Source of the DNA: Burkholderiales bacterium
Lineage (GTDB): Bacteria > Pseudomonadota > Gammaproteobacteria > Burkholderiales > Burkholderiaceae_C
Assembly (NCBI GenBank): GCA_017307855.1
Contig: JAFKGD010000008.1
Location: 62,001-126,000 of the forward strand
Length of the DNA: 64,000 bases
Direction of reading: 5' to 3'
Shown: in pieces, positions 33,225 through 51,151 of the stretch
Numbering within the stretch: the first letter of the stretch is position 1
How the letters are laid out: each line of letters begins with the position of its first letter
Position numbers and translations under genes: made by a program
Notes under the pieces: generated by a model
What the model saw: only the letters and a program-made list of their open reading frames with translations
The model's database searches: none
What the model was told of the DNA's origin: nothing

Positions 33225-34121
33225 TCAAGGTTCGGGCGGCGCGGCGCGGAACGGATTGAATCCCGTCACCAGCGCCGTGGCCAGCAGCACCAGCAGGCAG
33301 CCCGGCAGCATGCCGGCCGTGACGGGCTCGCCCAGGAACAGCCCGCCCCAGGTCACGCCGAAAAACGGGATCATGAACGCGGCCGACGTGGCCGCGCTGG
33401 CCGATATCTCGCGCATCAGCCGCATGCTGATCCAGTACATGAAGCCCGAGGTGAACGTGCCCAGCACCAGCAACGCGACAGCAGCCTCGGGCGTGACGCG
33501 TGCGGACGACGCGGTGCCCGCCAGTGGCAGGGCCAGCATGGCGGCGGCGGCCACGTGCACGGCGGCCGAGGCCGCCAGCGGCTCGTGGCGTTGTGTGGCG
33601 CGCTTCATGAGGATGGCGCCGATGCCGTAGCTGGCCGCGCCGGCCGTGCAGGCCAGCGCGGCCAGCACCACCGGCCAGGTGGCGGCGATGGGACCGAGCT
33701 GCACCAGCAGCGCCACGCCCGAGAAACCTACGCCGCAGCCCAGCAGGCGGCGTGTCGTCAGGCGTTCCTCGCCCAGCAGCGCCGCACCCAGCACGCCGAA
33801 CAGCGGCGCGGTGGCATTGAGCACGGCCGAGTAGCCGGCCGGCAGCACCAGGGCCGCGAGGTTGAACAGCACGAACGGTGCGGCCACGGTGAGCAGCGCG
33901 ACCACCGCCAGCCGGGGCCATGCCGCGCGCGCGGGCCAGTGCTGGCGCAGCAGGCGCATCAGCAGGCCCAGCACCAGCGATGCGAGGATGCAGCGCACGC
34001 CGGCGACCACCCAGGGCCCCAGTGCCGGGCTGGCGATGCGCAGCAGGGGAAACGACGCGCCCCACAGGGCGGACATGGCGATGAGCTGGAGGAAGTGGCG
34101 CGTGTGCATGCAGCCGGCCAT
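33225..34121 (-). CDS. EamA/DMT-family permease
   Basis: 298 residues with ten hydrophobic segments in two repeated halves (EamA domains about 10-140 and 155-290). The first begins MSALWGASFPLLRIASPALGPW, typical of the drug/metabolite transporter family. ATG at 34,119 is used; MHTRHF at 34,107 is an alternative. It is the last gene of the leftward module-1 operon, 36 bases after the TIM-barrel gene, and may carry the pathway's substrate or a product. Substrate unknown. Confidence 0.86.
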   Translation of the reverse strand: MAGCMHTRHFLQLIAMSALWGASFPLLRIASPALGPWVVAGVRCILASLVLGLLMRLLRQHWPARAAWPRLAVVALLTVAAPFVLFNLAALVLPAGYSAVLNATAPLFGVLGAALLGEERLTTRRLLGCGVGFSGVALLVQLGPIAATWPVVLAALACTAGAASYGIGAILMKRATQRHEPLAASAAVHVAAAAMLALPLAGTASSARVTPEAAVALLVLGTFTSGFMYWISMRLMREISASAATSAAFMIPFFGVTWGGLFLGEPVTAGMLPGCLLVLLATALVTGFNPFRAAPPEP

Positions 34122-34157
34122 TGTCGGGCCGGCGCGGTTTCCCGTGCCGTGCGCAGG

Positions 34158-34982
34158 TCAGGCGGGCGGGTCGAGCACGGCGCGCGCCGCGGCCAGCGCC
34201 TGCCGCGCGAACTCGATCGGCGGCAGCGCCGCCTGGCGCTGCAGGTGCGGGATCTCCACGCTCACCGGCAGGCCCGCGGGCAGCGCGCCAAACAGGCCAC
34301 GCAGGTCGATGCCGCCTTCGCCGGGCATCAGCCGTTCGCTGCGCGCGGTGTGCACCAGTTCGTCGTCGGTGAAGCGGTGACCCGGCGGCGCCGGTGCATC
34401 GCAGGCCTGCGCGTAGTGCAGCAGGTCGCGCGGCAGCGCCGCGATGTCGGCCAGCGTGGTGCCGCTGCGTGCGTAGTGCAGCGCATCGACCAGCACGCCC
34501 GCGTTGGACGGGTGGCCGGCGGCACGCACCACGGCCAGCGCCTCGCGCGCGGTCTTCACGGCGGTCCAGGGCATGAATTCGAGGTCGGCCGTGAGGCCGC
34601 GCGGCGCCATGGCTTCGCACAGGCGTGCGTAGCTGTCGGCCAGCCGCGCGGTGTCGGTGTCGTCGGCGGCCACCAGCACGGCGCGCGCGCCGATGGCCTG
34701 GCCCACGTCGAGCATCGGCAGGTGTGCCGTCACGTCGAAGCGCTCGCCGATGCGGATGATCTCCAGGTCGAACACGCCGGTGCCCGTGTCGGCCATCACG
34801 GCCTTGAGTTCGGCCAGCTCGGCCGGCGCATCCACCAGCGCCTGATAGGGCGTGCCCGGCAGGTTGGCGGCAATGCGCAGGCCCACGAAGCCGTAGCCGA
34901 TGGCATGGGCCGTGCGCAGCATCTCGGCCGCACGCAATGTTGGCGTGGTGAGGTAGGCCAGCGACCAGGCGCGTGTCGTCAT
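34158..34982 (-). CDS. Sugar phosphate isomerase/epimerase-type TIM barrel (3-dehydroshikimate dehydratase-like fold)
   Basis: 274-residue TIM barrel of the AP endonuclease 2 / xylose-isomerase-like family. The four metal ligands expected are visible in order: Glu135 (ADLEFMPW), Asp166 (VLVDALHY), Gln192 (HYAQACD) and Glu243 (SVEIPH). The same Glu-Asp-Gln-Glu set occurs in the module-2 protein at 48,604. It could be an epimerase, a dehydratase or a lyase for a hydroxylated ring acid. It is in the leftward module-1 operon, 10 bases after the NIPSNAP gene. Confidence 0.85.
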   Translation of the reverse strand: MTTRAWSLAYLTTPTLRAAEMLRTAHAIGYGFVGLRIAANLPGTPYQALVDAPAELAELKAVMADTGTGVFDLEIIRIGERFDVTAHLPMLDVGQAIGARAVLVAADDTDTARLADSYARLCEAMAPRGLTADLEFMPWTAVKTAREALAVVRAAGHPSNAGVLVDALHYARSGTTLADIAALPRDLLHYAQACDAPAPPGHRFTDDELVHTARSERLMPGEGGIDLRGLFGALPAGLPVSVEIPHLQRQAALPPIEFARQALAAARAVLDPPA

Positions 34983-34992
34983 CGGGCCGGCC

Positions 34993-35619
34993 TCACTGCA
35001 GCGGCGACACGGCCGTGGCCATGGCGATGGTGGAATGCATGTCGGTGGTCAGGAACGACGGTCCGCCCTTGGGCGGCCAGATGCCCTGCGCCACGGCGTC
35101 GGCGCGGGCCTTGCCGCGCGCTTCCACCGTGGGGTATGCCCAGATGTTGGTGAAGCGCGGCACGCCGTCCAGCGCCACCATGGCCACCACGCAGGGCGAT
35201 ACCTTTTCGCGTGCGGGAATGGCCTCGCGCCACAGGTCGATGGTCGGCTGCATGCCGCCGGGCCGGAACCCGTAGGTGCGGATTTCATAGACGGGCCCCC
35301 GCACGCCGCTTTCGGCGCTGGGCCGCACGGCCTTCATCCACGGGAAGCCGCGATAGCCCTGCAGCTCCAGCGACACGGCGAGCTCGCCGCAGCCGAAGGG
35401 CGAGGCCGAGGCCAGCGTGCGCTCGCGCTCGGCCTCCAGTGCGTTCAGGTCGGCGAAGCCACGCAGCACCAGCATCTGGTTGAGCCGCCCGATGTCGGTG
35501 AACCAGCAGCCCAGCAGTTCGCCTCCGGCATCGGCTGCGGTGGCGAATTGCTGCACGGCCGTGGCGGCCGTGCCGGCGCTGCCGAACGGAAGGGTGAGGG
35601 TGGCGAGCTGGTAGTACAT
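34993..35619 (-). CDS. NIPSNAP-family protein
   Basis: 208 residues with two ferredoxin-like NIPSNAP units (about 1-95 and 105-205). The second shows the family pattern VYEIRTYGFRPGGMQPTIDLWREAI and FTNIWAYPTVEARGKAR. Such proteins often accompany catabolic enzymes in Burkholderiales, but a defined reaction is not established. It lies between the flavoenzyme and TIM-barrel genes of module 1. Confidence 0.85.
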   Translation of the reverse strand: MYYQLATLTLPFGSAGTAATAVQQFATAADAGGELLGCWFTDIGRLNQMLVLRGFADLNALEAERERTLASASPFGCGELAVSLELQGYRGFPWMKAVRPSAESGVRGPVYEIRTYGFRPGGMQPTIDLWREAIPAREKVSPCVVAMVALDGVPRFTNIWAYPTVEARGKARADAVAQGIWPPKGGPSFLTTDMHSTIAMATAVSPLQ

Positions 35620-35650
35620 GGTGTGTCGGTCCGTTGGAAGAAGGAGAGGA

Positions 35651-37357
35651 TCAGTGGCCGGCCGCCGCAGCGTGCTGCGCCGCGAGGAAGCCGAACGTCA
35701 TGGCCGGCCCGAGCGTGATGCCGCCACTGGGGTAGTGGCCCTGCATGATGCTGGCCATGTCGTTGCCGGCGGCGTAGAGCCCGGCGATGGGCGCGCCGTC
35801 GGCGCCCAGCACGCGCGCCTGCGCATCGCAGGCCAGGCCCGCGAAGGTGCCCAGGCTGCCGGGCACCACGCGCACGGCGTAGTAGGGGCCGCGCGCGAGC
35901 GGGGCCATGCAGGGGTTTGGCAGGCCGCGCGAGGCGTCGCCCTGCACGCGGTTGTAGGGCGTCTCGCCCTTGGCGAAGTCATCGTCGTGGCCGGAGCGCG
36001 CCTGCGCGTTGTATCGCTCCACGGTGGCTTCGAGGGCCGCTGCGTCGATGCCGCACTGCGCCGCCAGCGCCGCCAGCGTCGGCGCGCGCTGCAGGTAACC
36101 GCTGGCCAGGTGCGTCGCCAGCGGCATCGGCGCCGGCTTGGCGGCACCCAGGCCGTAGCGGCGCACGAATGCGTGGTCGGCGACCAGCCAGGCCTGCACG
36201 GGCTGGCCCGTTGGGGTGGCGTCGATGAGCGCGCGCGTGAAGTCGTAGTAGGAGTCCGCCTCGCTCACGAAGCGCCGGCCGGCCGCGGTGACCGCGATCA
36301 CACCCGGCTTGGCACGCTCGATGAGGTGCGGGAAATGCGCCACGCTGCCATCGGCGCGCGGCACCAGCGACACGGGCGCCAGGGCCGCGGCGTGAGCGAG
36401 ATCGCCGCGCACGCGCGCGCCGGCGCGCTCGCCCATCCGCAGGCCGTCGCCGGTGGCGCTGCGTGCGGCGGCCGACCAGTGTTCGTGGCCCGTGGGCGCG
36501 TGCGGCAGCAGGTCGCGCTTGCGCGCCGTGTCGTGGGGGAAGCCACCGCAGGCCAGCACCACGCCGCGCGCGGCGCGGATGTCGCGCCACGCGCCGTCAG
36601 CGCCCTGCACGCGCGCGCCGTTCACGCGACCCTCTTCGTCACGCAGCAGCTCGCGCGCGGCCGTGTCCAGCAGCATCGCCACGCCGGCTTCGAAGGCCGA
36701 GGCGGCCAGCGCGGCCACCAGCGCGTTGCCGTTGACCAGCCGCTGGCCCCGGCCGTGCACCAGCCGGTCGCGCGCATGCGCCAGCACGCGCCGCGCCACG
36801 TAGAAGAACGAGCGCGGTGCGTGCAGCGCATTCAGGTAATGCCGCAACTCGGCCCCCGACGCGATGCCCATGCCCCACAGCGTCGTCTCGGCCAGCGGCG
36901 GCTTGAGCTGCGCCAGCCGAGGGCCCAGGCGCCTGCCGTCGAACGGCGCGGCGCAGACCGAGCGACCGCCGGTGGCCGCATGCGGCTGGCGCCCGTGGAA
37001 GTCGGGCACTGCATTGCCGTCGATGAACTGCAGCGCGGTGTGGCGGCGAAAGAACTCCACCATGCGCGGCGCAGCGTCCAGATACGCGCGGGCGCGGGGC
37101 TCGTCGAAACGCGCACCGAGCTCCTCGCGCAGGTAGGCCAGCGGCGCTTCGGCGGGTTCGTCGATGCCGGCTTCTCGCGCCAGCGGATTGCGCGGCACCC
37201 ACATCCAGCCGCCCGACCAGGCCGTGGTGCCGCCGTACTGCGGCTCCTTCTCGACCACGATGACCGACAGGCCCAGATGCGCGGCCGTGACGGCCGCCGA
37301 CAGGCCGCCCGCGCCCGAGCCGACGACCAGCAGGTCGCACTGCAGTTCGGCACTCAT
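35651..37357 (-). CDS. FAD-dependent oxidoreductase, 3-ketosteroid dehydrogenase / fumarate reductase type
   Basis: 568-residue flavoprotein of the FAD_binding_2 family. The dinucleotide fold is LLVVGSGAGGLSAAV (9-23) with acidic EKEPQYGGTTAWSGGWMWVP after it. The C-terminus carries YYAVRVVPGSLGTFAGL and HYPSGGITLGPAMTFG, where the Tyr and Gly match the catalytic region of 3-ketosteroid delta-1-dehydrogenases. It probably removes two hydrogens next to a ring carbonyl. It has no signal peptide. It lies 34 bases after the IclR gene in the leftward operon. The true substrate is unknown; see its relative at 39,163. Confidence 0.88.
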   Translation of the reverse strand: MSAELQCDLLVVGSGAGGLSAAVTAAHLGLSVIVVEKEPQYGGTTAWSGGWMWVPRNPLAREAGIDEPAEAPLAYLREELGARFDEPRARAYLDAAPRMVEFFRRHTALQFIDGNAVPDFHGRQPHAATGGRSVCAAPFDGRRLGPRLAQLKPPLAETTLWGMGIASGAELRHYLNALHAPRSFFYVARRVLAHARDRLVHGRGQRLVNGNALVAALAASAFEAGVAMLLDTAARELLRDEEGRVNGARVQGADGAWRDIRAARGVVLACGGFPHDTARKRDLLPHAPTGHEHWSAAARSATGDGLRMGERAGARVRGDLAHAAALAPVSLVPRADGSVAHFPHLIERAKPGVIAVTAAGRRFVSEADSYYDFTRALIDATPTGQPVQAWLVADHAFVRRYGLGAAKPAPMPLATHLASGYLQRAPTLAALAAQCGIDAAALEATVERYNAQARSGHDDDFAKGETPYNRVQGDASRGLPNPCMAPLARGPYYAVRVVPGSLGTFAGLACDAQARVLGADGAPIAGLYAAGNDMASIMQGHYPSGGITLGPAMTFGFLAAQHAAAAGH

Positions 37358-37391
37358 CGCTTGTCGCCCTTCGCTCGAATGCGCAACGTGT

Positions 37392-38225
37392 TCATGGCGC
37401 GTAGATCGCGCGGCGTTCGCCCGCGTCTCCGCCCTGCGCGCCGCTGCGGCTGCGGAAGAAGGGCGACGCGCCGCTGGCGGCGGCCAGCCGGGCGGCCGTG
37501 GCCAGCAATTCGGGCGCGAGGGCGTGCATGCGCTCTTCGGTGAAGCGCGCCGAAGGTCCGGCCACGCTCACCATGCCCAGCGGACGGGGCTGGCCCGAGA
37601 GGCGCACCGGAGCCGCCATGGCCGACAGGCCGGCGGTGTAGGTGTCGACCGTGACGCTGTAGCCGCGCGCGCGGGTGTCCTTCACCGCCTGCATCACGGC
37701 CTGCAGCGAGGTGGGCGCATTGGGCCCGTAGTCGGCCGGATCGCCCAGCCCCTGGCGTGACACCAGCGCCAGCGCCTCGTCGTCGGTCAGTGCCGACATC
37801 AGGGCCCAGCCGGAGGACGAGCACGACAGCCGCGCGTCGCTGCCCATGTCGGGGTCGTAGCGCAGGCCCTGGCGCGCGCCCTGCGACCGCGCCACCCAGG
37901 TGAGCCGGTCGCCGTCCAGCACCGACAGCCGCACCAGTTCGCCCGAGGCGGCGGCCAGGTGGTCCAGCAATGGCTGGCCAATGTCGACGATGCCGGTGTT
38001 GCTGAGGTAGGTGAGGCCCATCGACACCAGCTTCGTCGTGAGCATGTAGTCGCCATGCCCTCGCGTTTGCGTGACGTAGCCGCAGCGCACCAGGTCTGCG
38101 AGCAGGCGGTGGACGGCGCTGTTGGGGATGTCCAGACGCTCGGCGATGACGCTGAGCTCCATGGGCTCGCCCTGCGAGGTCAGCAGTTCGAGGATGCCGA
38201 GGGTGCGTTCGAGGATGCCGTTCAT
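37392..38225 (-). CDS. IclR-family transcriptional regulator (module 1)
   Basis: 277 residues. Winged HTH at about 1-65 (LERTLGILELLTSQGEPMELSVIAERLDIPNSAVHRLLADLVRCGYV), quoted here as successive motif parts, followed by the effector-binding GAF-like domain. The ATG at 38,223-38,225 is used; the frame opens at a TTG 9 bases earlier. It is first in the leftward operon with the flavoenzyme, NIPSNAP, TIM-barrel and EamA genes and divergent from the AroE-like gene. A sequence close to the E. coli IclR box lies in the gap. Confidence 0.9.
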   Translation of the reverse strand: MNGILERTLGILELLTSQGEPMELSVIAERLDIPNSAVHRLLADLVRCGYVTQTRGHGDYMLTTKLVSMGLTYLSNTGIVDIGQPLLDHLAAASGELVRLSVLDGDRLTWVARSQGARQGLRYDPDMGSDARLSCSSSGWALMSALTDDEALALVSRQGLGDPADYGPNAPTSLQAVMQAVKDTRARGYSVTVDTYTAGLSAMAAPVRLSGQPRPLGMVSVAGPSARFTEERMHALAPELLATAARLAAASGASPFFRSRSGAQGGDAGERRAIYAP

Positions 38226-38236
38226 GTCGATCAATT

Positions 38237-38272
38237 TTCCGGAATCATATTCAAAATTGGAAATATTTTCCA
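38237..38272. promoter_or_regulatory. candidate IclR operator region of module 1
   Basis: TGGAAATATTTTCCA (38,258-38,272) differs at one base from the E. coli IclR box TGGAAATNATTTCCA. Two more inverted motifs lie beside it: TTCCGGAA (38,237-38,244) and GAAT-CAT-ATTC (38,242-38,252). The stretch is strikingly A/T-rich for this genome and sits between the divergent iclR and AroE-like genes. Confidence 0.65.
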
Positions 38273-38353: not shown

Positions 38354-39166
38354 ATGCAGATTCCTCTCGACGGCGCTACGCGCGTGCACTACATCGTGGG
38401 CGATCCCATCGCCCAGGTGAAATCGCCCGGCGGCGTGACGGCCGACTTCCACCAGGCCGGCCTCAACGCGGTGGTGGTGCCCGCCCATGTGGTGCCGACC
38501 GACCTCGCGGCGTGGGCGGCCGGCGTGTCGCTGGCTCGCAATGTGGACGGCATCATCGTCACGGTGCCGCACAAGTTCGCCTTCCACGCGTTGTGTGCTA
38601 CGGCCTCGGAGCGCGCCACCTTCCTGGGCGCCGTCAACACCCTGCGCCGCAATGCCGATGGCAGCTGGCACGGCGACATGTTCGACGGCCTGGGCTACGT
38701 GCGTGCCATGGCGCTCAAGGGTTGCGATGTGGCCGGCCGGCGCGTGCTGCTGGTGGGCGCGGGCGGGGCCGGCTCGGCCATCGCGCATGCGGTGGTGATG
38801 GCCGGCGCGGCGCAACTGGTGATCCACGACGAGAGCGACAGCCGTCGCGACACGCTGGTGGCGCGGCTGGCCGTGCTGGGCCGCGGCGAGGTGCTGGCCA
38901 GCCGCACGGGCCGGCCGGCCGCCGCTGGTTTCGACATCGCACTCAACGCCACTCCCATGGGTATGCAGGCGGGCGACCCGCTGCCGTTCTCGCTGGAGGG
39001 TGCGGGCGCCGACACCTTCGTGGGCTGCGTCGTCACGCAACCGTCGGTGCCGCCGGTGATCGCCCAGGCGCGCGCGCTGGGTTGCGAGACCAGCACCGGC
39101 GCCGACATGTTCGCCCAGGTGCGCGAACTGATGGTGGCCTTCCTGCGCGGCCAGGACACGCCATGA
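38354..39166 (+). CDS. Shikimate dehydrogenase-like NAD(P) oxidoreductase (module 1)
   Basis: 270-residue AroE-like protein. The catalytic pair is kept: Lys74 in TVPHKFAF and Asp111 in MFDGLG, and the nucleotide loop VLLVGAGGAGSA (131-142) is normal. In the substrate pocket, the usual AroE SxS segment reads PIAQVKSPGG, so one of the two serines is replaced; this points to quinate/shikimate-like ligands other than the biosynthetic one. Start ATG at 38,354 (MQIPLDGATRVHYIVGDP). Its stop overlaps the next gene by ATGA. Confidence 0.87.
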   Translation: MQIPLDGATRVHYIVGDPIAQVKSPGGVTADFHQAGLNAVVVPAHVVPTDLAAWAAGVSLARNVDGIIVTVPHKFAFHALCATASERATFLGAVNTLRRNADGSWHGDMFDGLGYVRAMALKGCDVAGRRVLLVGAGGAGSAIAHAVVMAGAAQLVIHDESDSRRDTLVARLAVLGRGEVLASRTGRPAAAGFDIALNATPMGMQAGDPLPFSLEGAGADTFVGCVVTQPSVPPVIAQARALGCETSTGADMFAQVRELMVAFLRGQDTP

Positions 39167-40911
39167 TCGACACCCGGCTGTCGTCGCATGCGGAGGGCGC
39201 CGCCTTCGACGTGGTGGTGATCGGCGCGGGTGGCGCGGGCCTTTCGGCAGCGCTGTTCGCCTCGCTGGCCGGCGCGCGCGTGCTGCTGGTGGAGCGCACC
39301 GGCTACGTGGGCGGCACCACGGCGTTCTCGGCGGGCACGACGTGGGTGCCGCTGTCGGCGCCCGGCCTGGCCGTGGCGCCGGGCGACACGGCCGATACGG
39401 TGCTGGGCTTTCTCGATCACGCCGTGGGCGAGCGCTCGCCGCGCGCGCTGCGCGAAGCCTTCGTGGCGCACGGCGCGCAGGCCGTGGCCGAGCTCGAACG
39501 CCATACGGCGATGCGCTACCAGGTGCGCCGCTTCCATCCCGATTACCTCTCGGAACTGGAAGGCTCGGCCACGGCCGGCCGCGCCATCGAGCCCGTGCCC
39601 TTCGACGGCCGCCTGCTCGGCGACGACCTGCGGCTGGTGCGCCCGCCCATCCCCGAATTCACGGTGCTCGGCGGAATGATGGTGGACCGCGACGACATCG
39701 GCCACCTGCTGGGTTTCACGCGTTCGCTGACCTCGCTGCGGTACGTGCTGCGCATCCTCGCGCGCCATGCGGGCGACCGATTGCGCCACGGGCGCGGCAC
39801 ACGCCTGGTCATGGGCAACGCGCTGGTCGCGCGAATGCTGTATTCGCTGCGCGAGCGCGGCGTGCCGCTGGTCACGCACACCGACCTGCGCGCCTTGCGC
39901 CGCGATGCCTCCGGCGCGATCACCGGCGTGTTGCTGGCGCAGGACGGCGACGGCGGCACGACCGAGCGCGCCTTCTCCGTGCACGGTGGCGTGGTGCTGG
40001 CCAGCGGCGGCTTCAACCGCCACCCCGCGCGGCGCGCCGAGCTGTTGCCGGGTATTGACGCCCACTGGTGCCCGGGTGCGCCCGGGCACACCGGCAGCGC
40101 GCAGGATCTGGCGCTGGCCGCCGGCGCACGGCTGGGGCAGGGCCATCGCACGCATGCATTCTGGGCGCCGGTCTCCACGCGCATGCGCGCCGACGGCAGC
40201 ACGGCCGTGTTTCCGCACTTCGCCATGGATCGCGGCAAGCCCGGCATGCTGGCGGTGGATGCGCACGGACAGCGCTTCGTCAACGAATCCACCTCCTATC
40301 ACCTGTTCGGCCGCGCCATGCAGGACGCAGCCCGCCCCGCCGTGCCGGCCTGGCTGGTCTGCGACGCGGCGGCGCTGCGCCGCTATGGCCTGGGCATGGT
40401 GCGGCCTGGCGGGCGCGGGCTGGCCCCCTATCTGGCCGACGGCTACCTGCAGCAGGGCGACACGCTGGCCGCGCTGGCCGGCCGCATCGGCGTGCCGGCC
40501 GCCGCGCTCGAAGCCACGGTGCAGTCGTTCAATGCCATGGCGCGCGCGGGCGACGACGCCGGCTTCGCGCGCGGCACCACGGTCTACCAGCGTGCGAACG
40601 GCGATGCCGGCTGGCCCGGCCCCAATCCTTGCCTGGGCGAACTGACGCAGGCACCCTTCTATGCGGTGCGGCTCGTGCCCGGCGACATCGGCGCCACGAC
40701 CGGCCTGGTGACCGATGCGAACGCGCGCGTGCTGGGGGATGGCGACCAGGCCATCGCCGGCCTCTATGCCTGTGGCAACGACATGAACTCGATCATGGCG
40801 GACACCTATCCGGCACCGGGCATCACGCTCGGGCCCGGCCTGGTGTTCGCGCGCCAGGCCGCGCGAGATGCCTGCCGCCGCGCCGGGGTGCTGCCGAAGG
40901 AGACCGTGTGA
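39163..40911 (+). CDS. FAD-dependent oxidoreductase, 3-ketosteroid dehydrogenase type (module 1, second copy)
   Basis: 582 residues, homologous throughout to the flavoenzyme at 35,651. FAD fold VVVIGAGGAGLSAALFAS (16-33) and ERTGYVGGTTAFSAGTTWVP; C-terminal FYAVRLVPGDIGATTGL and TYPAPGITLGPGLVFAR. In the last motif Pro replaces the first Gly of the family's YPSGG/YPGAG segment, so activity or substrate may differ from its partner. It is coupled to the AroE-like gene (ATGA), suggesting sequential oxidation of one ring compound. Confidence 0.88.
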   Translation: MIDTRLSSHAEGAAFDVVVIGAGGAGLSAALFASLAGARVLLVERTGYVGGTTAFSAGTTWVPLSAPGLAVAPGDTADTVLGFLDHAVGERSPRALREAFVAHGAQAVAELERHTAMRYQVRRFHPDYLSELEGSATAGRAIEPVPFDGRLLGDDLRLVRPPIPEFTVLGGMMVDRDDIGHLLGFTRSLTSLRYVLRILARHAGDRLRHGRGTRLVMGNALVARMLYSLRERGVPLVTHTDLRALRRDASGAITGVLLAQDGDGGTTERAFSVHGGVVLASGGFNRHPARRAELLPGIDAHWCPGAPGHTGSAQDLALAAGARLGQGHRTHAFWAPVSTRMRADGSTAVFPHFAMDRGKPGMLAVDAHGQRFVNESTSYHLFGRAMQDAARPAVPAWLVCDAAALRRYGLGMVRPGGRGLAPYLADGYLQQGDTLAALAGRIGVPAAALEATVQSFNAMARAGDDAGFARGTTVYQRANGDAGWPGPNPCLGELTQAPFYAVRLVPGDIGATTGLVTDANARVLGDGDQAIAGLYACGNDMNSIMADTYPAPGITLGPGLVFARQAARDACRRAGVLPKETV

Positions 40912-41822: not shown

Positions 41823-41847
41823 TCGAACATTTCCGTTCGATCATCGA
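41823..41847. promoter_or_regulatory. candidate IclR/PcaU-type operator
   Basis: TCGAAC-N6-GTTCGA (41,823-41,840) has perfect 6-bp arms, and overlaps TCGAT-C-ATCGA (41,837-41,847). It lies 36 bases upstream of the iclR start and about 90 before the AroE-like gene, a suitable place for a divergent regulator. Confidence 0.55.
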
Positions 41848-45003: not shown

Positions 45004-46005
45004 ATGAAGAAGACATATCTCATCGCGCTGGCCGTCGCGGCCGTGCTGCTGCTGGTCACGCCGCTGTTCCTCAAGAACTACGGCATCTACCTGCTCACCT
45101 ACTGGCTGGTGTTCGTCATCGCCACCATGGGCCTGAACCTCACCGTGGGCTACGCCGGCCAGAAATCGCTGGGCCACGCCGCTTTCTTCGGCATCGGCGC
45201 CTACACGGTGGCCATCCTCATGAAGGCCGGCATCAGCTGGTGGATCGGCGCGCCGCTGGCGGCGGCGCTGTGCTTCGTGGTCGGCCTGGCGCTGGGCTTT
45301 CCGGCGCTGCGCGTGCAGACCATCTATCTCGCGTTCGCCACGCTGGGCTTCAACACCGCCGTGTGGCTGTTCATCCGCAACGAGGAGTGGCTCACGGGCG
45401 GCACCTTCGGCATCAACAACGTGGCGCGGCCCGAGCTGTTCGGCATCTCGCTGGAGCGCAATCTGCCGTACTACTACTTCGTGCTGGCCGTGACGGTGCT
45501 GCTGTCGCTGCTGCTGCTGGGCCTGCTGCGCAGCCCCTGGGGCAAGGCGTTCACCGCGCTGCGCGACAACCCGATCCGCGCCGAGAGCCTGGGCGTGAGC
45601 ATCCGCAGCTACACGCTGCTGTCGTTCGCCATCGGCGCGGCCTATGCCGGCATCGCCGGCGCGCTGTTCGCCTCGCTGGTGCAGTTCATCGAGCCGGCAC
45701 CGTTCGCCGTGGCGGCCTCGATCATGATGTACCTGATGGTCGTCGTCGGCGGCCCGGGCTACTTCTTCGGCCCGGTGCTCGGCGCCGCGATGGGCGTGGT
45801 CGTGCCCGAATGGATCCGTGACGTGCCCGGCGTGGCCAACTGGTACCTGCCGCTTTTCGGCGCCGCCGTGGTGGCGCTGATGGTCTGGCTGCCCGACGGC
45901 CTGTTGAGCCTGCCCGACCGCATCCGCGACAAGCGCGCCTCGCGCGAGGCCAATGCCGCGCGCCAGGCTGCTGCTGCCGCGCAAGGCAAGGGAGCACAAG
46001 CATGA
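45004..46005 (+). CDS. livM: Branched-chain-type ABC transporter permease (LivM family)
   Basis: 333 residues, about nine membrane segments. LNLTVGYAGQKSLGHAAFFGIGAYTVAIL is the LivM signature (read in two parts), and ALRDNPIRAESLGVSI is the conserved cytoplasmic EAA-like loop that contacts the ATPase. The C-terminal 25 residues are charged and Ala-rich. Its stop overlaps the livG start (ATGA). Confidence 0.92.
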   Translation: MKKTYLIALAVAAVLLLVTPLFLKNYGIYLLTYWLVFVIATMGLNLTVGYAGQKSLGHAAFFGIGAYTVAILMKAGISWWIGAPLAAALCFVVGLALGFPALRVQTIYLAFATLGFNTAVWLFIRNEEWLTGGTFGINNVARPELFGISLERNLPYYYFVLAVTVLLSLLLLGLLRSPWGKAFTALRDNPIRAESLGVSIRSYTLLSFAIGAAYAGIAGALFASLVQFIEPAPFAVAASIMMYLMVVVGGPGYFFGPVLGAAMGVVVPEWIRDVPGVANWYLPLFGAAVVALMVWLPDGLLSLPDRIRDKRASREANAARQAAAAAQGKGAQA

Positions 46006-46841
46006 CCAGCCTGAACGCCGCACGGCCGCCCGAAGGCGTGAGCACCCCCTCGGGGGGCAGCGCAGTACACGAAGTGACAAGCGTGGGGGCCTCATTGCTC
46101 AAAGTCACCGACCTCAAGAAGTCCTACGGCGCCATCCAGGCCGTGGGCGGCGTGAGCTTCGAAGTCCAGCCCGGAGAAATCTTTGGGGTGATCGGTCCCA
46201 ATGGATCGGGCAAGACCACGCTGTTCAATTCCATGCTCGGCCAGATCACGCCCGACGCGGGCCGCATCGAGCTCAAGGGCGAGGACGTCACGCGCCTGGG
46301 GCCGCTGGCGCTCAGCCGGCGTGGCGTGGGCCGCACCTTCCAGACGCTGCAGGTGTTCGGCAAGATGTCGGTGCGCGACAACCTGCTGGTGGCCGCGCAG
46401 GAGCACCACGGCAGCATGTTCAGCCGCATGTTCGCGCCCGGCGATTCGGGCCTGGGCGCCAAGGCCGACGCGCTGATCGACCGCTTCCGCATCCGCCATG
46501 TGGCCCATCTCAAGGCGGGCACGCTGTCGTATGGCCAGCAGAAGCTGGTGGACATCGCCATGGCCTTCATGAGCGAACCCGACCTGGTGCTGCTCGACGA
46601 GCCCTGCGCCGGTGTGAACCCGAGCCTGGTGGGCGGCATCTCGACGCTGCTCAAGGACCTCAACCGCAACCCCGCCTCGGGCAAGAAGACCAGCTTCGTG
46701 GTGATCGAGCACAACATGGACTTCGTGATGGACCTGTGCCACCGCATCATGGTGATGGTGGAAGGCCGCGTGATGGCCATCGGCACGCCGGCCGAAATCC
46801 GCGCCAACAAGCAGGTGCTCGACGCCTATCTGGGAGCCTGA
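46002..46841 (+). CDS. livG: Branched-chain-type ABC transporter ATPase (LivG family) with repeat-derived N-terminus
   Basis: 279 residues. Walker A GPNGSGKTT (about 66-74), ABC signature here LSYGQQKLVDIAMA, Walker B LVLLDEPCAGVNP and switch His in VIEHNMD; LivG-type length after the core. The first 30 residues (to about VTSVGA) are encoded by a copy of the dispersed hairpin repeat at 46,021-46,091, in frame; homologous ATPases begin near SLLKVTDLKKSYGA. The start overlaps the livM stop (ATGA), so the repeat is within the translated gene unless a later start is used. Confidence 0.9.
   Translation: MTSLNAARPPEGVSTPSGGSAVHEVTSVGASLLKVTDLKKSYGAIQAVGGVSFEVQPGEIFGVIGPNGSGKTTLFNSMLGQITPDAGRIELKGEDVTRLGPLALSRRGVGRTFQTLQVFGKMSVRDNLLVAAQEHHGSMFSRMFAPGDSGLGAKADALIDRFRIRHVAHLKAGTLSYGQQKLVDIAMAFMSEPDLVLLDEPCAGVNPSLVGGISTLLKDLNRNPASGKKTSFVVIEHNMDFVMDLCHRIMVMVEGRVMAIGTPAEIRANKQVLDAYLGA
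46021..46091. repeat. dispersed hairpin repeat, copy 6, inside the livG coding sequence
   Basis: CACGGCCGCCCGAAGGCGTGAGCA leads into CCCCCTCGGGGGGCAGCGCAGTACACGAAGTGACAAGCGTGGGGGC (46,045-46,090), matching copies 2, 4 and 5. The insertion has no stop in the livG frame and encodes roughly residues 8-30 of the predicted LivG. Confidence 0.85.
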
Positions 46842-46843
46842 CG

Positions 46844-47620
46844 ATGAGCCAAGACAACACCCAAGGCATGGGCCATCCCGCCATCGAGTTCGACGACGTC
46901 GTCGCCGGCTACAAGGACTTCATGATCCTCAACAACCTGAGCTTCAAGGCCAGGCGCGGATCGATCACGCTGCTGCTCGGACCCAACGGCGCGGGCAAGT
47001 CCACGGTGCTCAAGACACTGTTCGGCATCCTCAAGCCGCGCCAGGGCCGCGTGCTGCTGGACGGCCAGGACATCACCGGCATCACCCAGAAAGAGCTGCT
47101 GGCCCAGGGCGTGGCCTTCGTGCCGCAGGGGCGCAACCTGTTCGGCCAGCTCACGGTGTGGCAGAACCTGGAGCTCGGTGGCATCACGCTGGGCATGAAG
47201 ACCACGCACGAGCGTATTCCCGAGGTGCTGGAGTTCTTCCCGCGCGTGAAGGAGCGGCTGCACAGCATGGCCTCGAGCCTGTCGGGCGGCGAGCAGAAGC
47301 AGCTGGAGATCGGCCGCGCGTTGCTGCTGCGGCCCAAGGTGCTGCTGATCGACGAGCCCTCCATCGGCCTGTCGCCCATCGTGGTGCAGGACGTGTTCAA
47401 GCTGCTGCGCCGGCTCGCCGACCAGGGCACCACGGTGCTGATGGTGGAGCAGAATGTGAAGAGCGCGCTCAAGATCTCCGATGACGCCATCGCGCTCGAA
47501 TCCGGCCGCATGGTGCTGCACCGCCCGGCGGCCGAATTGCTGGCCGATCCCGACATCGAACGGCTGTTCCTCGGCGGCGCGCACGCGGCGGCGGTGGCCG
47601 CGGCCGGCGCCCCGGCCTGA
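46844..47620 (+). CDS. livF: Branched-chain-type ABC transporter ATPase (LivF family)
   Basis: 258 residues. Walker A GPNGAGKST, Q-loop in VPQGRNLFGQLTV, ABC signature SLSGGEQKQLEIGRAL, Walker B VLLIDEPSIGLSP and switch MVEQN. These are LivF-specific variants. It has a C-terminal Ala-rich tail (AAAVAAAGAPA). It begins 2 bases after the livG stop and completes the importer. Confidence 0.93.
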   Translation: MSQDNTQGMGHPAIEFDDVVAGYKDFMILNNLSFKARRGSITLLLGPNGAGKSTVLKTLFGILKPRQGRVLLDGQDITGITQKELLAQGVAFVPQGRNLFGQLTVWQNLELGGITLGMKTTHERIPEVLEFFPRVKERLHSMASSLSGGEQKQLEIGRALLLRPKVLLIDEPSIGLSPIVVQDVFKLLRRLADQGTTVLMVEQNVKSALKISDDAIALESGRMVLHRPAAELLADPDIERLFLGGAHAAAVAAAGAPA

Positions 47621-47665
47621 CTGCGGCCCCCGGCCCTTCCTCACAACTCATTTCCAAGGAGTTTC

Positions 47666-48592
47666 GTGGCAATGAATGCACCCCACAACCCCGACGCCGA
47701 CGGCCAGCTGCGCGAGCCGCTGCAGGCTTCGTTCAGCGATGCGGCCAACCCGGTCGGCCTCGACGGCGTCGAGTTCATCGAGTTCGCCGCGCCGCGCCCG
47801 CAGGCGCTGGGGCAGGTGCTGGAGATGATGGGCTTCCGTCCGGTGGCGCGGCACCGATCTCGCGAAGTGCTGCTGTACCGGCAGGGTGGCCTCAACGTGA
47901 TCGTCAACGCCGATCCGCTCGATGCCCGGGGCGCCGCCCACGGCAGCGACGAGCCGGCCATCGCCGCGATCGCGCTGCGTGTGCGCGATGCGCGCGCGGC
48001 CTACGACTACGCCCGTGAGCGCGGCGCCTGGGAAGTGCCCACCAAGGCCGACGTGATGGAGCTCAACATACCCGCCATCCACGGCGCGGGCGGCAGCCGC
48101 ATCTACTTCATCGACCGCTGGCGCGAGTTCTCGATCTACAACGTCGACTTCGTGCCCATTCCCACGGTGGACCAGAATCCGCCCGCGGTGGCCGGCGCGC
48201 ATTTCTTCGGCGTGGTGCAGTACATCGGCGTGGGGCGCAGCTACGACTGGATCGAGTTCTATGCCGAGCTGTTCGGCTTCACCGAAATACCGGACGACGA
48301 GCGCTTCGGCATCATGCCCAAGGGCAAGCTGCTCAAGAGCCCGGCCAGCGAGGGCGGCGACGGCTTCATGATCCAGCTGATCGAGCCCGACGCGCTGGTG
48401 CTCGACGGCGAGGAGAAGCTCCAGCGCATTGGCATCGGCGTGCCCGACGTGCTGGCGGCCGTGCGCGAGTTCCGCCGCCTGGGCATGGAGTTCGTCGAGA
48501 CGCCGGCTGCGCACACCGAATCGCGCGGCGCCATCACCAAGACGTATCTGGGCTCGGTGGTGTTCGAGCTGGTCCATTCCGCCAAAGCCTGA
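47666..48592 (+). CDS. HPPD-like VOC-superfamily protein (C-terminal-half relative of fused 3-dehydroshikimate dehydratases)
   Basis: 308 residues with two VOC modules: GVEFIEFAAPRPQALGQVLEMMGF and, in the second half, SYDWIEFYAELFGFTEIP, both similar to 4-hydroxyphenylpyruvate dioxygenase. The C-terminal VVFELVHS keeps the possible metal Glu, but the HPPD-type QHIA motif here reads LQRIGIG, so the iron triad looks incomplete. In some pseudomonads a comparable domain is fused behind a 3-dehydroshikimate dehydratase (QuiC1); here it is a separate gene placed before it. GTG at 47,666 or ATG at 47,672 (after AAGGAG) starts it. Confidence 0.8.
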   Translation: MAMNAPHNPDADGQLREPLQASFSDAANPVGLDGVEFIEFAAPRPQALGQVLEMMGFRPVARHRSREVLLYRQGGLNVIVNADPLDARGAAHGSDEPAIAAIALRVRDARAAYDYARERGAWEVPTKADVMELNIPAIHGAGGSRIYFIDRWREFSIYNVDFVPIPTVDQNPPAVAGAHFFGVVQYIGVGRSYDWIEFYAELFGFTEIPDDERFGIMPKGKLLKSPASEGGDGFMIQLIEPDALVLDGEEKLQRIGIGVPDVLAAVREFRRLGMEFVETPAAHTESRGAITKTYLGSVVFELVHSAKA

Positions 48593-48603
48593 GAGCACGT
48601 GAT

Positions 48604-49488
48604 ATGAGTGTTCACATCTCCGGCTTCGGCATGGACACCATCACGCTGGCCGGCCCGCTCGAGGCCAAGCTGGCGGCGATGAAGGGCGCGGGCTTCTCGC
48701 AGGTGATGCTCAAGGCCAACGACCTCGTGGGCCACCCCCAGGGCCTGGACGCCGCCGTCGCGGCCGTCAAGGCCAGCGGCCTGCGCGGCACGGGCTTTCA
48801 GGTGCTGCGGGATTTCGAAGGCCTCTCGGGCCACCTGCACAGCTACAAGATCGACATCGCGAAATCGATGCTGCAGATGTGCGCGGCGCTGGGCTGCAAG
48901 GTGCTGCTGTGCTGCTCGTCCACCTCGCAGCACGCCACGGGCGACATGGACCACATCGCGCGCGACCTGCGCAAGCTGGCCATGCTGGCGTTGCCGCTGG
49001 GTATCAACATCGCCTACGAAGGCCTCTCGTGGGGCCGCACCATCAACGAGTACACCACGGCCTGGGACGTGGTGGCTCGCGCCGACTGTCCCAACCTGGG
49101 CGTGGGGCTGGACAGCTATCACATCTTCGCCGCCGGGACCTCGCTCGAATACATCGAGGACATCGATCCGGCGAAGATCTTCCTGGTGCAACTGGCCGAC
49201 TTCATGTGGCAGGAAACGCCCACCTTCCAGGACCGCATGACCACGGCGCGCACCTTCCGCGTCTTCCCTGGCGAAGGCGTGCACAGCGAGGCGCTGGTCG
49301 ATCTGGTGCAGCGCCTGGATGCGCTGGGCTACCGGGGCGACTACAGCTTCGAAGTCTTCAACGACGACTACCTGAACCTGCCGCTGCCCACGGTGGCCGA
49401 GCGCGCGCGCAAGAGCGCGGTGTGGCTGGCCGAGGGTGTGCTGCGCCGCTCCACGCCGTTGCCCGGTGCGATGCGGCTGAAAAAATAG
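48604..49488 (+). CDS. Probable 3-dehydroshikimate dehydratase (TIM barrel)
   Basis: 294 residues. The predicted reaction is 3-dehydroshikimate to protocatechuate. The xylose-isomerase-like barrel carries the metal-binding set Glu139 ([10 protein letters not shown]), Asp170 (GLDSYHIF), Gln196 (VQLADF) and Glu250 (SFEVFND), as in AsbF/QuiC-type dehydratases. The neighbouring AroQ would supply 3-dehydroshikimate from 3-dehydroquinate, and the AroE-like enzyme from shikimate, which supports the call. Another TIM-barrel isomerase activity cannot be excluded from sequence alone. Confidence 0.78.
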
Positions 49489-49520
49489 CTCGCCCCCAGA
49501 GATTTGGACTCGTCACCAGG

Positions 49521-49607
49521 CTGCGCTCGCTTCGTGTGCTTCGCCAACCCCCTACCGGGGGCAACACCGACGGCCCGGCGGAGCCGGTTCCGTGGTGTTC
49601 CTGGTCC
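49521..49607. repeat. dispersed hairpin repeat, copy 7 (diverged)
   Basis: CTGCGCTCGCTTCGTGTGCTTCGCC, CCCCCTACCGGGGG hairpin, then CGGCCCGGCGGAGCCGGTTCC. Its first part is the reverse complement of the tail of copies 2, 4 and 5, and its second part matches copies 1 and 3, which shows that the two kinds of copy are one family. It lies within the operon, between the dehydratase and Gfo/Idh genes. Confidence 0.7.
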
Positions 49608-49634
49608 CGATTCGTGCTGCGCGGAGATTTGCTC

Positions 49635-50690
49635 ATGACCTCTTCCATTTCCATCGCCGTGGCCGGCGCGGGCGCGATCGGCCGGCGCCATGCCGAACTG
49701 CTGGCGGCCTCGCCGCGCGCCCACCTGGCTGCCGTGGCCGATCCGTCACCCGCCAGCGTGACCTGGGCGGCGGAGCAGGGGGTGCCGCACTACCCGGCGC
49801 TCGACGCGCTGCTGGCGTCCGGCACGCGCATCGACGGCGTCATCCTCGCCACGCCCAACCACCTTCACGTGCCGGGCGCGCTGGCCTGCGCCGCGCATGG
49901 CGTGCCCGCGCTGATCGAGAAGCCCGTGGCCGACACCGTGGCGGGCGGCCGCGTGCTGGCCGATGCCGTGGCGCGCGCCGGCGTACCCATGCTGGTGGGC
50001 CACCACCGCCGCCACAGCCACACGCTGCTGCGCGCGCGCGAGGTCATCGCCGCTGGTGGCCTGGGCCGCATCGTCACGGTGATGGGCAGCGCGCAGTTCG
50101 CCAAGCCCGACGCGTATTTCGAAGGTGGCCCGTGGCGCAGGGTGAAGGGCGGCGGCCCCATCCTCATCAACCTGATCCACGAGATGGACAACCTGCGCTA
50201 CCTGTGCGGCGAGGTCGAATCGGTGCACGCCATCGCCTCCAGCGCCGTGCGCGGCTTCGAGGTGGAAGACTCGGCCGTGATCAGCCTGCGCTTTGCCTCG
50301 GGCGCGCTGGGCAGCTTCACGCTGTCGGACACGGGCGCGGGCCCGTTCAGCTGGGAACTCACGTCGGGCGAGAACCGCGACTATCCGCACCAGGACGGCA
50401 GCGATTGCTATGTGGTCACCGGCACGCAGGGCTCGCTGGCCGTGCCCACCTTGCGCACCTGGCACTACGAAGGCGAGGCGAGCTGGTGGCGACCGCTGGC
50501 CCAGGGCCGCGAGGACGGCGCGCGCAACGATCCGCTGGCCGCGCAGCTCGACCACTTCTGCGACGTCATCGCGCGTACAGTAGCGCCTCGCGCCACCGTG
50601 GCCGATGCGCTGGAGAGTCTGCGCGTGGTCGAGGCCGTGCGCCTGTCCATCGAAACTGGCGCCAGCGTGGCGCCTTCCGACATCCAGTGA
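49635..50690 (+). CDS. Gfo/Idh/MocA-family NAD(P)-dependent oxidoreductase
   Basis: 351 residues. N-terminal Rossmann fold [17 protein letters not shown] (6-22), the conserved EKP motif in [10 protein letters not shown] and a C-terminal alpha/beta substrate domain with [19 protein letters not shown]. Family members oxidise hydroxyls of sugars or cyclitols, e.g. inositol. In this operon it may oxidise a cyclic polyol feeding the AroE-like/AroQ route. It is separated from the gene before it by the repeat at 49,521. Confidence 0.85.
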
Positions 50691-50707
50691 AACCGCCTGA
50701 CGCCACC

Positions 50708-51151
50708 ATGAAAACAGCCCTCGTCCTCAACGGCCCCAACCTCAACCTGCTGGGCACGCGCGAACCGGCGGTCTACGGATCGCAGACCCTGGCCGATGTC
50801 GAGAAGCTCTGCGAGGCCGCCTGCGCCCAGCATGGCTTCACGCTCGACTTCCGCCAGACCAACCACGAAGGCCAGCTCGTCGACTGGCTGCACGAAGCCG
50901 GCCGCGCGCAGGCCGCGGGCACGCTGGCCGGTGTCATCCTCAATGCCGGCGCCTACACGCACACCAGCGTGGCCCTGCACGACGCCATCAAGGGCACGGG
51001 CGTCACGCTGATCGAGCTGCACATCAGCAACGTGCACGCGCGCGAGGCGTTCCGCCACCACTCGTATATCTCGCCCGCCGCCAAGGCGGTGATGGCCGGC
51101 TTCGGCGTCAAGGGCTATCCGCTGGCGATCGCGGCACTGGCGGGGTTCTGA
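50708..51151 (+). CDS. aroQ: Type II 3-dehydroquinate dehydratase
   Basis: 147 residues, normal for the dodecameric type II enzyme that interconverts 3-dehydroquinate and 3-dehydroshikimate. Signature [18 protein letters not shown] (7-24) with Tyr23 and Arg18 in the flexible loop, [12 protein letters not shown] (about 80) and [20 protein letters not shown]. Being last in a catabolic operon and not in an aro cluster suggests a role in quinate breakdown (often called quiB), in addition to or instead of biosynthesis. Confidence 0.93.

Follow-up and report, generated by a model that had tools for sequence, protein, structure and literature searches.

The described systems closest to the locus analysed here are pathways for ring acids. 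In the chc pathway, which leads from cyclohexanecarboxylate to 4-hydroxybenzoate, oxidation of a hydroxy acid gives a ring ketone, which is then aromatized by two desaturases acting in succession, in the outline given in PMC9795900. The qui/qsu pathway combines a quinate/shikimate dehydrogenase, AroQ and the dehydratase QuiC/QsuB with a transporter. Two further systems share parts with the locus: the 3-ketosteroid dehydrogenases (KstD), whose fold family is common to both flavoenzymes described below, and inositol catabolism (IolG, IolE, IolI), which shares the TIM-barrel fold and, in some related loci, a Gfo/Idh partner. We found no description of a flavin-dehydrogenase route from a quinate-like or shikimate-like ring acid.

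The window, a stretch of 64,000 nucleotides from a Burkholderiales bacterium of the Burkholderiaceae_C (GCA_017307855.1, contig JAFKGD010000008.1, positions 62,001–126,000), contains two adjacent modules (Table 1), whose genes and coordinates are those given in an earlier note on this DNA. Module 1 (33,225–40,911) encodes an EamA-family transporter, a metal TIM barrel, a tandem NIPSNAP protein, two flavoenzymes (FADa and FADb), an IclR regulator and an AroE-like dehydrogenase. Module 2 (40,971–51,151) encodes an IclR regulator, an AroE-like dehydrogenase (starting at about 41,937–41,970, inside a longer frame, 40,068–42,854), a Liv-type importer, a split QuiC (an HPPD-like protein and a TIM barrel), AroQ and a Gfo/Idh oxidoreductase, the last of these missing from the earlier gene list. 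Identity between the modules is 35% over 262 residues for the AroE-like proteins, 27% over 140 for the TIM barrels and 30% over 111 for the regulators, and the matching parts are, as judged from sequence, old homologues rather than recent copies.

Table 1. Features of modules 1 and 2, numbered from the first letter of the window.
Feature	Position	Strand	Basis
EamA-family transporter	33225..34121	-	Pfam EamA, 106.6 bits
Metal TIM barrel (AP_endonuc_2), dehydroshikimate-dehydratase/IolI-like	34158..34982	-	Pfam, residues, predicted fold
Tandem NIPSNAP (dimeric alpha+beta barrel)	34993..35619	-	Pfam NIPSNAP, two stretches
FADa, KstD-like flavin dehydrogenase	35651..37357	-	NCBIfam PRK06134
IclR-family regulator, module 1	37392..38225	-	Pfam IclR_C and HTH_IclR; start per gene caller
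Palindrome TGGAA-N5-TTCCA, putative IclR operator	38258..38272	.	Between IclR and AroE-like genes
AroE-like dehydrogenase, module 1	38354..39166	+	Pfam Shikimate_dh_N
FADb, KstD-like flavin dehydrogenase	39163..40911	+	NCBIfam PRK12843; start overlaps AroE-like stop
IclR-family regulator, module 2	40971..41786	-	Pfam
Palindrome TCGAAC-N6-GTTCGA, candidate module-2 operator	41823..41840	.	Pattern match
AroE-like dehydrogenase, module 2	41937..42854	+	TIGR00507; alternative start 41,970
Substrate-binding protein, Liv-type ABC importer	42919..44073	+	Pfam Peripla_BP_6 on longer frame 42,763–44,073
LivH-type permease	44104..44979	+	Pfam BPD_transp_2
LivM-type permease	45004..46005	+	Pfam BPD_transp_2
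LivG-type ATPase	46002..46841	+	Pfam ABC_tran, BCA_ABC_TP_C
LivF-type ATPase	46844..47620	+	Pfam ABC_tran on longer frame 45,953–47,620
HPPD-like (VOC) protein, QuiC C-terminal domain counterpart	47672..48592	+	Pfam Glyoxalase_5
TIM barrel, QuiC N-terminal (dehydroshikimate dehydratase) domain counterpart	48604..49488	+	5hmq match
Gfo/Idh/MocA oxidoreductase	49635..50690	+	TIGR04380
AroQ, type II 3-dehydroquinate dehydratase	50708..51151	+	TIGR01088

Module 2 had been credited with everything expected for conversion of quinate or shikimate to protocatechuate, which overstates the case: its AroE-like dehydrogenase is atypical and its dehydratase is split. The NCBIfam cut-offs for AroE and quinate/shikimate dehydrogenases (196 bits and more) are reached by neither AroE-like protein, the maxima being 120.2 bits for module 1 and 134.5 bits for module 2 (to TIGR00507, cut-off 200.2). 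In both, the SxS motif, which we take to be the carboxylate-binding motif of these enzymes, is absent, HSxSP being replaced by QVKSP in module 1 and QVKAP in module 2. The catalytic lysine and aspartate, presumably Lys65 and Asp102 of AroE, are present in both proteins; among 73 module-1 sequences they (Lys74 and Asp111) are invariant, as is Thr70, and Ser24 is found in 72. The module-2 TIM barrel matches 5hmq (E 3.2e-38) and retains nine of the ten active-site residues of 3-dehydroshikimate dehydratase that are listed in PMC7442255, with Ser206 replaced by Ala. It scores 150.9 bits against the 1200 of the NCBIfam QuiC model, which describes a two-domain fusion of 635 positions. The HPPD-like protein reaches 88.2 of the 277 bits set for 4-hydroxyphenylpyruvate dioxygenase (TIGR01263), and in an alignment to 1cjx both iron-binding histidines, which we take to be His161 and His240, are replaced, by Val and Arg. 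AroQ passes its cut-off (178.5 bits against 169.85) and the Gfo/Idh protein scores 134.1 bits to its model (cut-off 355). Like the qui/qsu pathway, module 2 has AroQ and both QuiC domains, the latter as separate genes.

Module 1 shares with the qui/qsu pathway an AroE-like dehydrogenase, a dehydratase-like TIM barrel and a transporter, but it lacks AroQ, and a NIPSNAP protein and a pair of flavin dehydrogenases are added. The suggestion that the flavoenzymes replace AroQ is too simple, because the dehydratase-like TIM barrel is also kept. The Glu-Asp-Gln-Glu metal ligands noted earlier were found in the TIM barrels of both modules; in module 1 these residues (Glu135, Asp166, Gln192 and Glu243), together with Arg77, His169 and Arg217, are invariant in 60/60 sequences. 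Eight of the ten residues listed in PMC7442255 are conserved, the equivalents of Arg64, Glu134, Asp165, His168, Gln191, Arg210 and Glu239 in 60/60 sequences and Leu103 (Leu97 of the list) in 59/60, with deviations at two positions (Leu136 to Met and Ser206 to Ala). Several other key residues are also found in IolI, and the predicted model (pLDDT 95.1) has IolI as its first fold match, with Lmo2234 and QuiC1 also at the top. The NIPSNAP protein exceeds the Pfam gathering score (85.8 bits, cut-off 22.3), and fold matches to its model (pLDDT 91.3) include a putative monooxygenase, an anthrone-oxidase-like protein, PenE and coproheme decarboxylases.

FADa and FADb belong to NCBIfam families PRK06134 (862.8 bits, cut-off 747) and PRK12843 (831.9 bits, cut-off 758), respectively. 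The four catalytic residues of KstD, presumably Tyr119, Tyr318, Tyr487 and Gly491 in Rhodococcus erythropolis numbering, correspond in FADb to Tyr128, Tyr379, Tyr549 and Gly553, which are kept in 79/79 sequences. FADa has this set only in part, since the first tyrosine position (residue 120) is Phe in 62 of 66 sequences, Tyr in three and Val in one; Tyr370, Tyr542 and Gly546 are kept in all 66. Both proteins match the ChcC2 model below its cut-off of 900 bits (FADa 481.7, FADb 404.1) and fall short of the 1000 bits set for ChcC1 (336.4 and 261.3). They are found paired at their loci, like ChcC1 and ChcC2; that they act consecutively is proposed from the genes. Module 1 differs from the chc pathway in having an AroE-like protein instead of the Chc alcohol dehydrogenase, an added TIM barrel and NIPSNAP protein and no P450 among its core genes.

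The co-occurrence search proposed in the earlier note showed that six core genes (TIM barrel, NIPSNAP, FADa, IclR, AroE-like and FADb) stand together in 51 of the 62 FADb loci of at least 14 kb (51/61 when the identical loci L090 and L093 are counted once), and the arrangement is therefore not due to chance. The cluster recurs in soil and freshwater bacteria, with its genes mostly in one of two orders, seen at 23 and 22 loci. Close FADa orthologues have AroE-like and FADb genes nearby in 5/5 loci and NIPSNAP and TIM-barrel genes in 3/5, whereas 15 control loci of FADa paralogues (46–54% identity; two of them short) contained no AroE-like or NIPSNAP gene and a TIM barrel in one only (L048, 30%). 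The EamA gene reads in the same direction as module 1 but occurs near 0/80 related loci and thus lies outside the conserved unit; a 55% homologue lies near a module-2-type TIM barrel in one family relative (L141).

In other lineages, module-2-type importer or QuiC-like genes adjoin module 1. Among the 62 long loci, LivH of the module-2 type (60% identity or more) occurs in 11, a QuiC-type TIM barrel (35% or more) with HPPD in seven (two of them identical) and AroQ in three, and a PcaK-like MFS gene adjoins FADb in 12 (37–100% identity to the L057 copy, which itself scores below the PcaK cut-off). Within the order sample, a QuiC-type TIM barrel was found in 5/6 module-1 genomes versus 18/300 overall. 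Of 46 genomes with FADb loci (37 with the complete six-gene core there and nine with an incomplete module), 45 encode a protocatechuate dioxygenase (3,4- above its cut-off, or 4,5- with E no higher than 1e-140), versus 44/200 in the order. Genome size and kinship confound this comparison; when only order-sample genomes are counted and the genome of the window is excluded, the figures are 4/5 versus 40/196 (p 0.009). The genome of the window encodes a protocatechuate 4,5-dioxygenase elsewhere.

Each palindrome in Table 1 is the sole match of its kind within the window. A relative of the one in module 1 was found in 31/33 orthologous IclR/AroE-like intergenic regions, versus a shuffled mean of 0.22, and it is likely to be an IclR operator; the other is a possible operator of module 2.

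Module 1 had been read earlier as a plausible second route, in which flavin dehydrogenation would oxidize or aromatize a related cyclohexane carboxylic acid. Cluster conservation, linkage to genes of the quinate/shikimate type and the KstD residues make this the best-supported reading. We consider it probable that module 1 is a second hydroaromatic-acid route ending in an aromatic acid, most likely protocatechuate, to which the dioxygenase counts point. The substrate that we infer is a hydroxylated cyclohexane- or cyclohexene-carboxylic acid akin to quinate or shikimate. Against this reading stand the low scores and missing SxS motif of the AroE-like proteins, the two substitutions in the module-1 TIM barrel and the key residues that this barrel shares with IolI. 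The AroE-like dehydrogenase would oxidize a ring hydroxyl to a ketone, FADa and FADb would then take hydrogen from the carbons flanking the ketone, each introducing a double bond in the manner of ChcC1 and ChcC2 on 4-oxocyclohexanecarboxylate, and the TIM barrel would eliminate water by taking off a hydroxyl in the beta position to the ketone, by analogy with dehydroshikimate dehydratase. The NIPSNAP protein may help in isomerization or further oxidation, the weakest step of the scheme. Protocatechuate would be cleaved by the 4,5-dioxygenase, and IclR may regulate both divergently transcribed operons by way of the palindrome at 38,258. Module 2 would be a sister route for quinate and shikimate proper, under separate regulation.

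The same cassette might instead yield a trihydroxylated arene, either gallate, by dehydrogenation of 3-dehydroshikimate (which minus two hydrogens is gallate by formula), or hydroxyquinol, if the carboxyl group is lost oxidatively, with intradiol or gallate-type ring cleavage to follow. The G137 cluster (L033), from the sole genome of the 46 without a protocatechuate dioxygenase at the thresholds used, contains a catechol/hydroxyquinol-type intradiol dioxygenase, and a Sinorhizobium meliloti pRM41A cluster (AroQ, TIM barrel, FADb) encodes a comparable dioxygenase along with a protein annotated as maleylacetate reductase, so that the product there may be a trihydroxybenzene; the genome of the window has at least one such dioxygenase. 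We nevertheless consider this fairly unlikely here: L033 was the sole match to the S. meliloti dioxygenase at E 1e-15 among 105 loci (L030–L129 and L163–L167) and the window, of the five LigB-domain proteins in the window's genome, the three scanned gave at best 303.9 and 257.7 bits to gallate dioxygenase (cut-off 412), and a gallate route has no need of a dehydratase-like TIM barrel. The IolI match could point to an inositol-like polyol without a carboxyl group, made into a ketone by a Gfo/Idh or AroE-like enzyme, handled by a TIM barrel resembling IolE or IolI and then aromatized or desaturated by the flavoenzymes. Gfo/Idh genes (40% identity or more to that of module 2) in 20/62 long loci, the missing SxS motif and 7cok, an SDH-family relative that is a 5-ketofructose reductase, fit such a cyclitol. 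It is made improbable by the linkage to QuiC-type genes, AroQ and PcaK-like transporters, by Ser24 and Thr70 of the AroE-like protein and by the third metal ligand, which is Gln as in dehydroshikimate dehydratase and not His, as we take it to be in IolI; module 1 also differs from inositol catabolism in its flavin desaturases and in having no ring hydrolase in its gene list.

An acyl-CoA dehydrogenase (76–80% identity to that of L050, L050 included) and a CoA-transferase (82–87%) each occur in 14/62 loci, directly 3' of the TIM-barrel gene in L050, which could mean that the acid is activated and that the module-1 enzymes work on ring CoA thioesters without full aromatization. The L050 dehydrogenase scores 235 bits to the cyclohexane-1-carbonyl-CoA dehydrogenase model (cut-off 650). 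Such a route is very improbable: the CoA genes are missing from about three quarters of the long loci, neither matches the window at E 1e-5 and they may belong to another pathway or act on the products of ring cleavage. Degradation of steroid or terpenoid rings, as the KstD name would imply, is hardly credible. The nearest solved relatives of FADa and FADb are 3-ketosteroid dehydrogenases, and in an epimerase-type recurrent neighbour (L062) the Pfam model 3Beta_HSD ranks second with 82 bits (Epimerase 122), but both flavoenzymes fall far short of the KstD cut-offs (PRK12844, 789; PRK07843, 788), FADa scoring 440.2 and 424 bits and FADb 392.4 and 376.7. Their context in the loci analysed is hydroaromatic, not steroid, and the ten neighbour proteins scanned resemble transporters, general dehydrogenases, CoA enzymes and a P450, with no steroid set.

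Bacteria that reduce quinate and shikimate form dihydroshikimate and 3,4-dihydroxycyclohexanecarboxylate. We tentatively suggest, as a bolder form of the hydroaromatic-acid reading, that module 1 may be a widespread aerobic route of Proteobacteria, not described before, that aromatizes such partly or fully saturated polyhydroxy ring acids by AroE-family oxidation followed by a pair of KstD-type desaturations. A paralogue of dehydroshikimate dehydratase and a NIPSNAP enzyme with a novel function would take part, and the route would lead to protocatechuate or a trihydroxybenzene. If the hydroaromatic-acid route is correct, it would assign a function to PRK06134 and PRK12843, for which NCBIfam has no name beyond 'FAD-dependent oxidoreductase', and likewise to a NIPSNAP protein conserved among bacteria and a clade of AroE-like proteins that hit shikimate dehydrogenase models below cut-off. 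It would also mean that soil and freshwater bacteria keep dedicated routes for hydroaromatic acids beyond quinate and shikimate, and that dehydration is not the only way in which such rings are aromatized, flavin desaturation being another. The module-1 enzymes are candidates for the production of aromatics from ring acids.

The window, C15:62,001-126,000 of a 5.0 Mb genome, carries two adjacent catabolic gene groups, modules 1 and 2, and the gene list that the earlier note proposed for both was borne out by family scans. Module 1 encodes members of the families EamA, AP_endonuc_2 (a TIM barrel), NIPSNAP, FAD_binding_2 (two proteins, FADa and FADb), IclR and Shikimate_dh_N (AroE-like), and module 2 an IclR regulator, an AroE-like protein, a complete Liv-type importer, an HPPD-like protein, a TIM barrel, a Gfo/Idh oxidoreductase and AroQ. 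In module 1 the start of FADb overlaps the stop of the AroE-like gene, and the IclR, FADa, NIPSNAP and TIM genes are co-directional with short gaps, so that two divergent operons seem to meet between these groups. A third AroE-family gene, on contig C16, is probably the biosynthetic copy. Past module 2 lie genes for a binding protein of the TctC type and for another HTH_IclR protein, and a LigB-domain dioxygenase (115 bits) lies outside both modules.

Coordinates of features in the window and in related loci
Feature	Sequence	Coordinates
Chorismate synthase	window	30,725-31,822
FADa	window	35,651-37,357
Apparent meeting point of the two module-1 operons	window	38,226-38,353
FADb	window	39,163-40,911
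Split QuiC (HPPD-like gene, then TIM gene)	window	47,672-49,488
HPPD-like gene	window	47,672-48,592
TctC-type binding protein and HTH_IclR protein	window	within 51,226-55,000
LigB-domain dioxygenase	window	58,094-58,918
Intradiol dioxygenase in the module 1+2 cluster	L033 (genome G137)	2,407-3,168
FADb-like/TIM cluster	L132 (S. meliloti Rm41 pRM41A)	7,716-16,680
Acyl-CoA dehydrogenase and CoA-transferase	L050	2,208-4,971

A FADb-alignment scan of one genome per species (84,980 species) gave 294 relatives, the best 80 of which were used. EamA was found at none of these 80 loci and was rejected as a member of the conserved unit. Full counts cover the 62 loci of at least 14 kb (18 shorter loci were left out; L090 and L093 are identical, leaving 61 distinct), with core genes called at identity limits of 35-55% set gene by gene. 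The co-occurrence search that the earlier note had proposed finds the module-1 genes conserved together: all six core genes (TIM, NIPSNAP, FADa, IclR, AroE-like and FADb) are present at 51 of the 62 loci. Many of the loci are non-independent, coming from Caballeronia, Paraburkholderia and Comamonadaceae; isolates of Paraburkholderia, Variovorax and Polaromonas are represented. Five core genes were found at four loci, four at three, three at two and two at two. Two main gene orders, TIM- NIPSNAP- FADa- IclR- AroE+ FADb+ (23 loci) and AroE- FADb+ FADa+ NIPSNAP+ TIM+ IclR+ (22 loci), show that the content of the module is kept and its order is variable. The unit also occurs in Zobellella, in Marinobacterium and on a Rhizobium plasmid, where it adjoins a Liv importer. 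At 15 control loci carrying FADa paralogues (46-54% identity) there was no AroE-like gene, no NIPSNAP gene and one TIM gene, at 30%. Clustering of neighbouring genes, for which ten representatives were named, returned recurrent reading frames that include antisense shadows.

More distant genomes (L163, L164, L165 and S. meliloti L132) share a smaller core of FADb and a module-1-type TIM barrel. L166 and L167 hold weaker FADb homologues (46-48%) with neither module 1 nor the FADb-TIM core, and genome G180 has a 51% homologue (L155) with no other module-1 gene, for which reason it was left out of the co-occurrence count; these three loci contradict the use of FADb alone as a marker of the module. 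Within the order, FADb at E <=1e-150 is patchily distributed (seven of 300 genomes, G180 included). This patchiness, together with a GC content of 0.726 over 34,158-40,911 against 0.68-0.70 in the surroundings, suggests that module 1 was gained horizontally. That either module arose from its neighbour by recent duplication was rejected on the low identities between them (AroE-like, 35%; TIM, 27% over 140 residues; IclR, 30% over 111 residues), their differing palindromes and the lower GC content of module 2 (0.678 against 0.727 in module 1).

FADa and FADb (45% identical to each other) fall into the NCBIfam families PRK06134 and PRK12843, respectively, each titled merely 'FAD-dependent oxidoreductase'; the closest characterised models are ChcC2 and KstD, and both proteins fall short of the cut-offs. 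We take the catalytic residues of KstD to be Y119, Y318, Y487 and G491. Mapped through alignments to 4c3x, their equivalents in FADb are Y128, Y379, Y549 and G553, which do not vary among 79 sequences; in FADa, all 66 sequences carry Y370, Y542 and G546, and 62 have Phe at the first position. Since the KstD residues are kept, both enzymes would be expected to desaturate a ring beside a ketone. Steroid degradation, considered given the similarity to KstD, was rejected on family cut-offs and on genomic context as judged from the ten named neighbours. The AroE-like proteins of both modules keep the catalytic Lys and Asp, lack the SxS motif, score below the listed AroE cut-offs and have 4k28 as their best structure match. 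The predicted model of the module-1 TIM barrel (pLDDT 95.1) is nearest in fold to IolI, Lmo2234 and QuiC1. An excerpt of PMC7442255 lists ten active-site residues for dehydroshikimate dehydratase, of which the module-2 barrel keeps nine and the module-1 barrel eight (L136 is Met and S206 is Ala); several of these are common to IolI, and Gln192 and Arg77 are the more telling residues in module 1. NIPSNAP is predicted to be a tandem barrel (pLDDT 91.3), with fold matches that include putative monooxygenases and coproheme decarboxylases.

Links to quinate/shikimate genes were counted within 10 kb on either side of FADb at the 62 loci. LivH sharing 60% or more identity with its module-2 counterpart and a module-2-type IclR (at least 50%) were each found at 11 loci, a QuiC-type TIM (at least 35%) with HPPD at seven (six distinct, the Derxia ones being 35-40% identical), AroQ at three, and a PcaK-like transporter gene, scoring under the PcaK cut-off, at 12, mostly in Paraburkholderia. 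At L165 a FADb-TIM pair, HPPD, a QuiC-type TIM, a Liv importer and an AroE-like gene are all clustered. By a statistic that ignores kinship, 18 of the 300 genomes sampled from the order encode a QuiC-type TIM, against five of the six module-1 carriers among them (p 2.5e-6), or four of five with the genome under study removed (p 3.5e-5); in G038 and G192 it lies away from module 1. Both halves of the split QuiC are present at 13 of 14 module-2-type loci; HPPD activity of the first was rejected on the loss of both His at what we take to be the iron-binding positions. Acyl-CoA dehydrogenase and CoA-transferase genes (76-87% identity) each occur at 14 of the 62 long loci, and at L050 they directly follow the module-1 TIM gene.

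The aromatic product was approached through ring-cleavage dioxygenases in the 46 genomes with FADb loci (the locus holds the complete six-gene core in 37 and fewer of these genes in nine). Protocatechuate dioxygenase is encoded in 45, without overlap between the 3,4-type (over cut-off in 30) and the 4,5-type beta subunit (E <=1e-140 in 15). The latter limit was chosen because the control search ran at it, and was applied on both sides; the PRK13366 family cut-off alone would count 24 of the 46. Among 200 control genomes of the order 25 have the 3,4-type and 19 the 4,5-type, again without overlap, and four of these 44 are module-1 genomes; the contrast of 45/46 with 44/200 is inflated by large genomes and kinship. 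Restricted to the order sample, with the genome under study left out, the figures are 4/5 against 40/196, and G137 may be among the 196.

G137 is the sole genome of the 46 that lacks protocatechuate dioxygenase at the limits used, and its module 1+2 cluster contains a catechol/hydroxyquinol-type intradiol dioxygenase between an AroE-like gene and FADa. On pRM41A, typed as a conjugative plasmid, a FADb-like gene and a TIM gene are accompanied by AroQ, NIPSNAP, another intradiol dioxygenase of this type and an annotated maleylacetate reductase, a cluster that possibly encodes a route from a hydroaromatic acid to hydroxyquinol. Protocatechuate is favoured as the product of module 1, albeit tentatively, at slightly under an even chance; given these two intradiol enzymes, a trihydroxybenzene is a less likely alternative.

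The palindrome [TG]GAA-N5-TTC[CT]A is present in 31 of 33 IclR/AroE intergenic regions, the window's included (shuffled mean 0.22, maximum 2), the pattern having been picked after inspection and the 33 sequences being related. The sole TGGAA-N5-TTCCA of the window sits in this region of module 1 and resembles what we take to be the IclR consensus. Module 2 has its own, differing candidate palindrome, and each module probably responds to an inducer of its own.

No description of the module-1 gene combination was found in the literature searched, most subscription journals being outside its coverage. Precedent comes from the chc pathway, where, according to an excerpt of PMC9795900, two consecutive desaturases aromatise a ring ketone; module 1 sets desaturation chemistry of this type beside quinate-type parts. 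It is somewhat probable that module 1 represents a conserved catabolic cassette that would convert a quinate/shikimate-like hydroaromatic acid to an aromatic acid by flavin-dependent desaturation.
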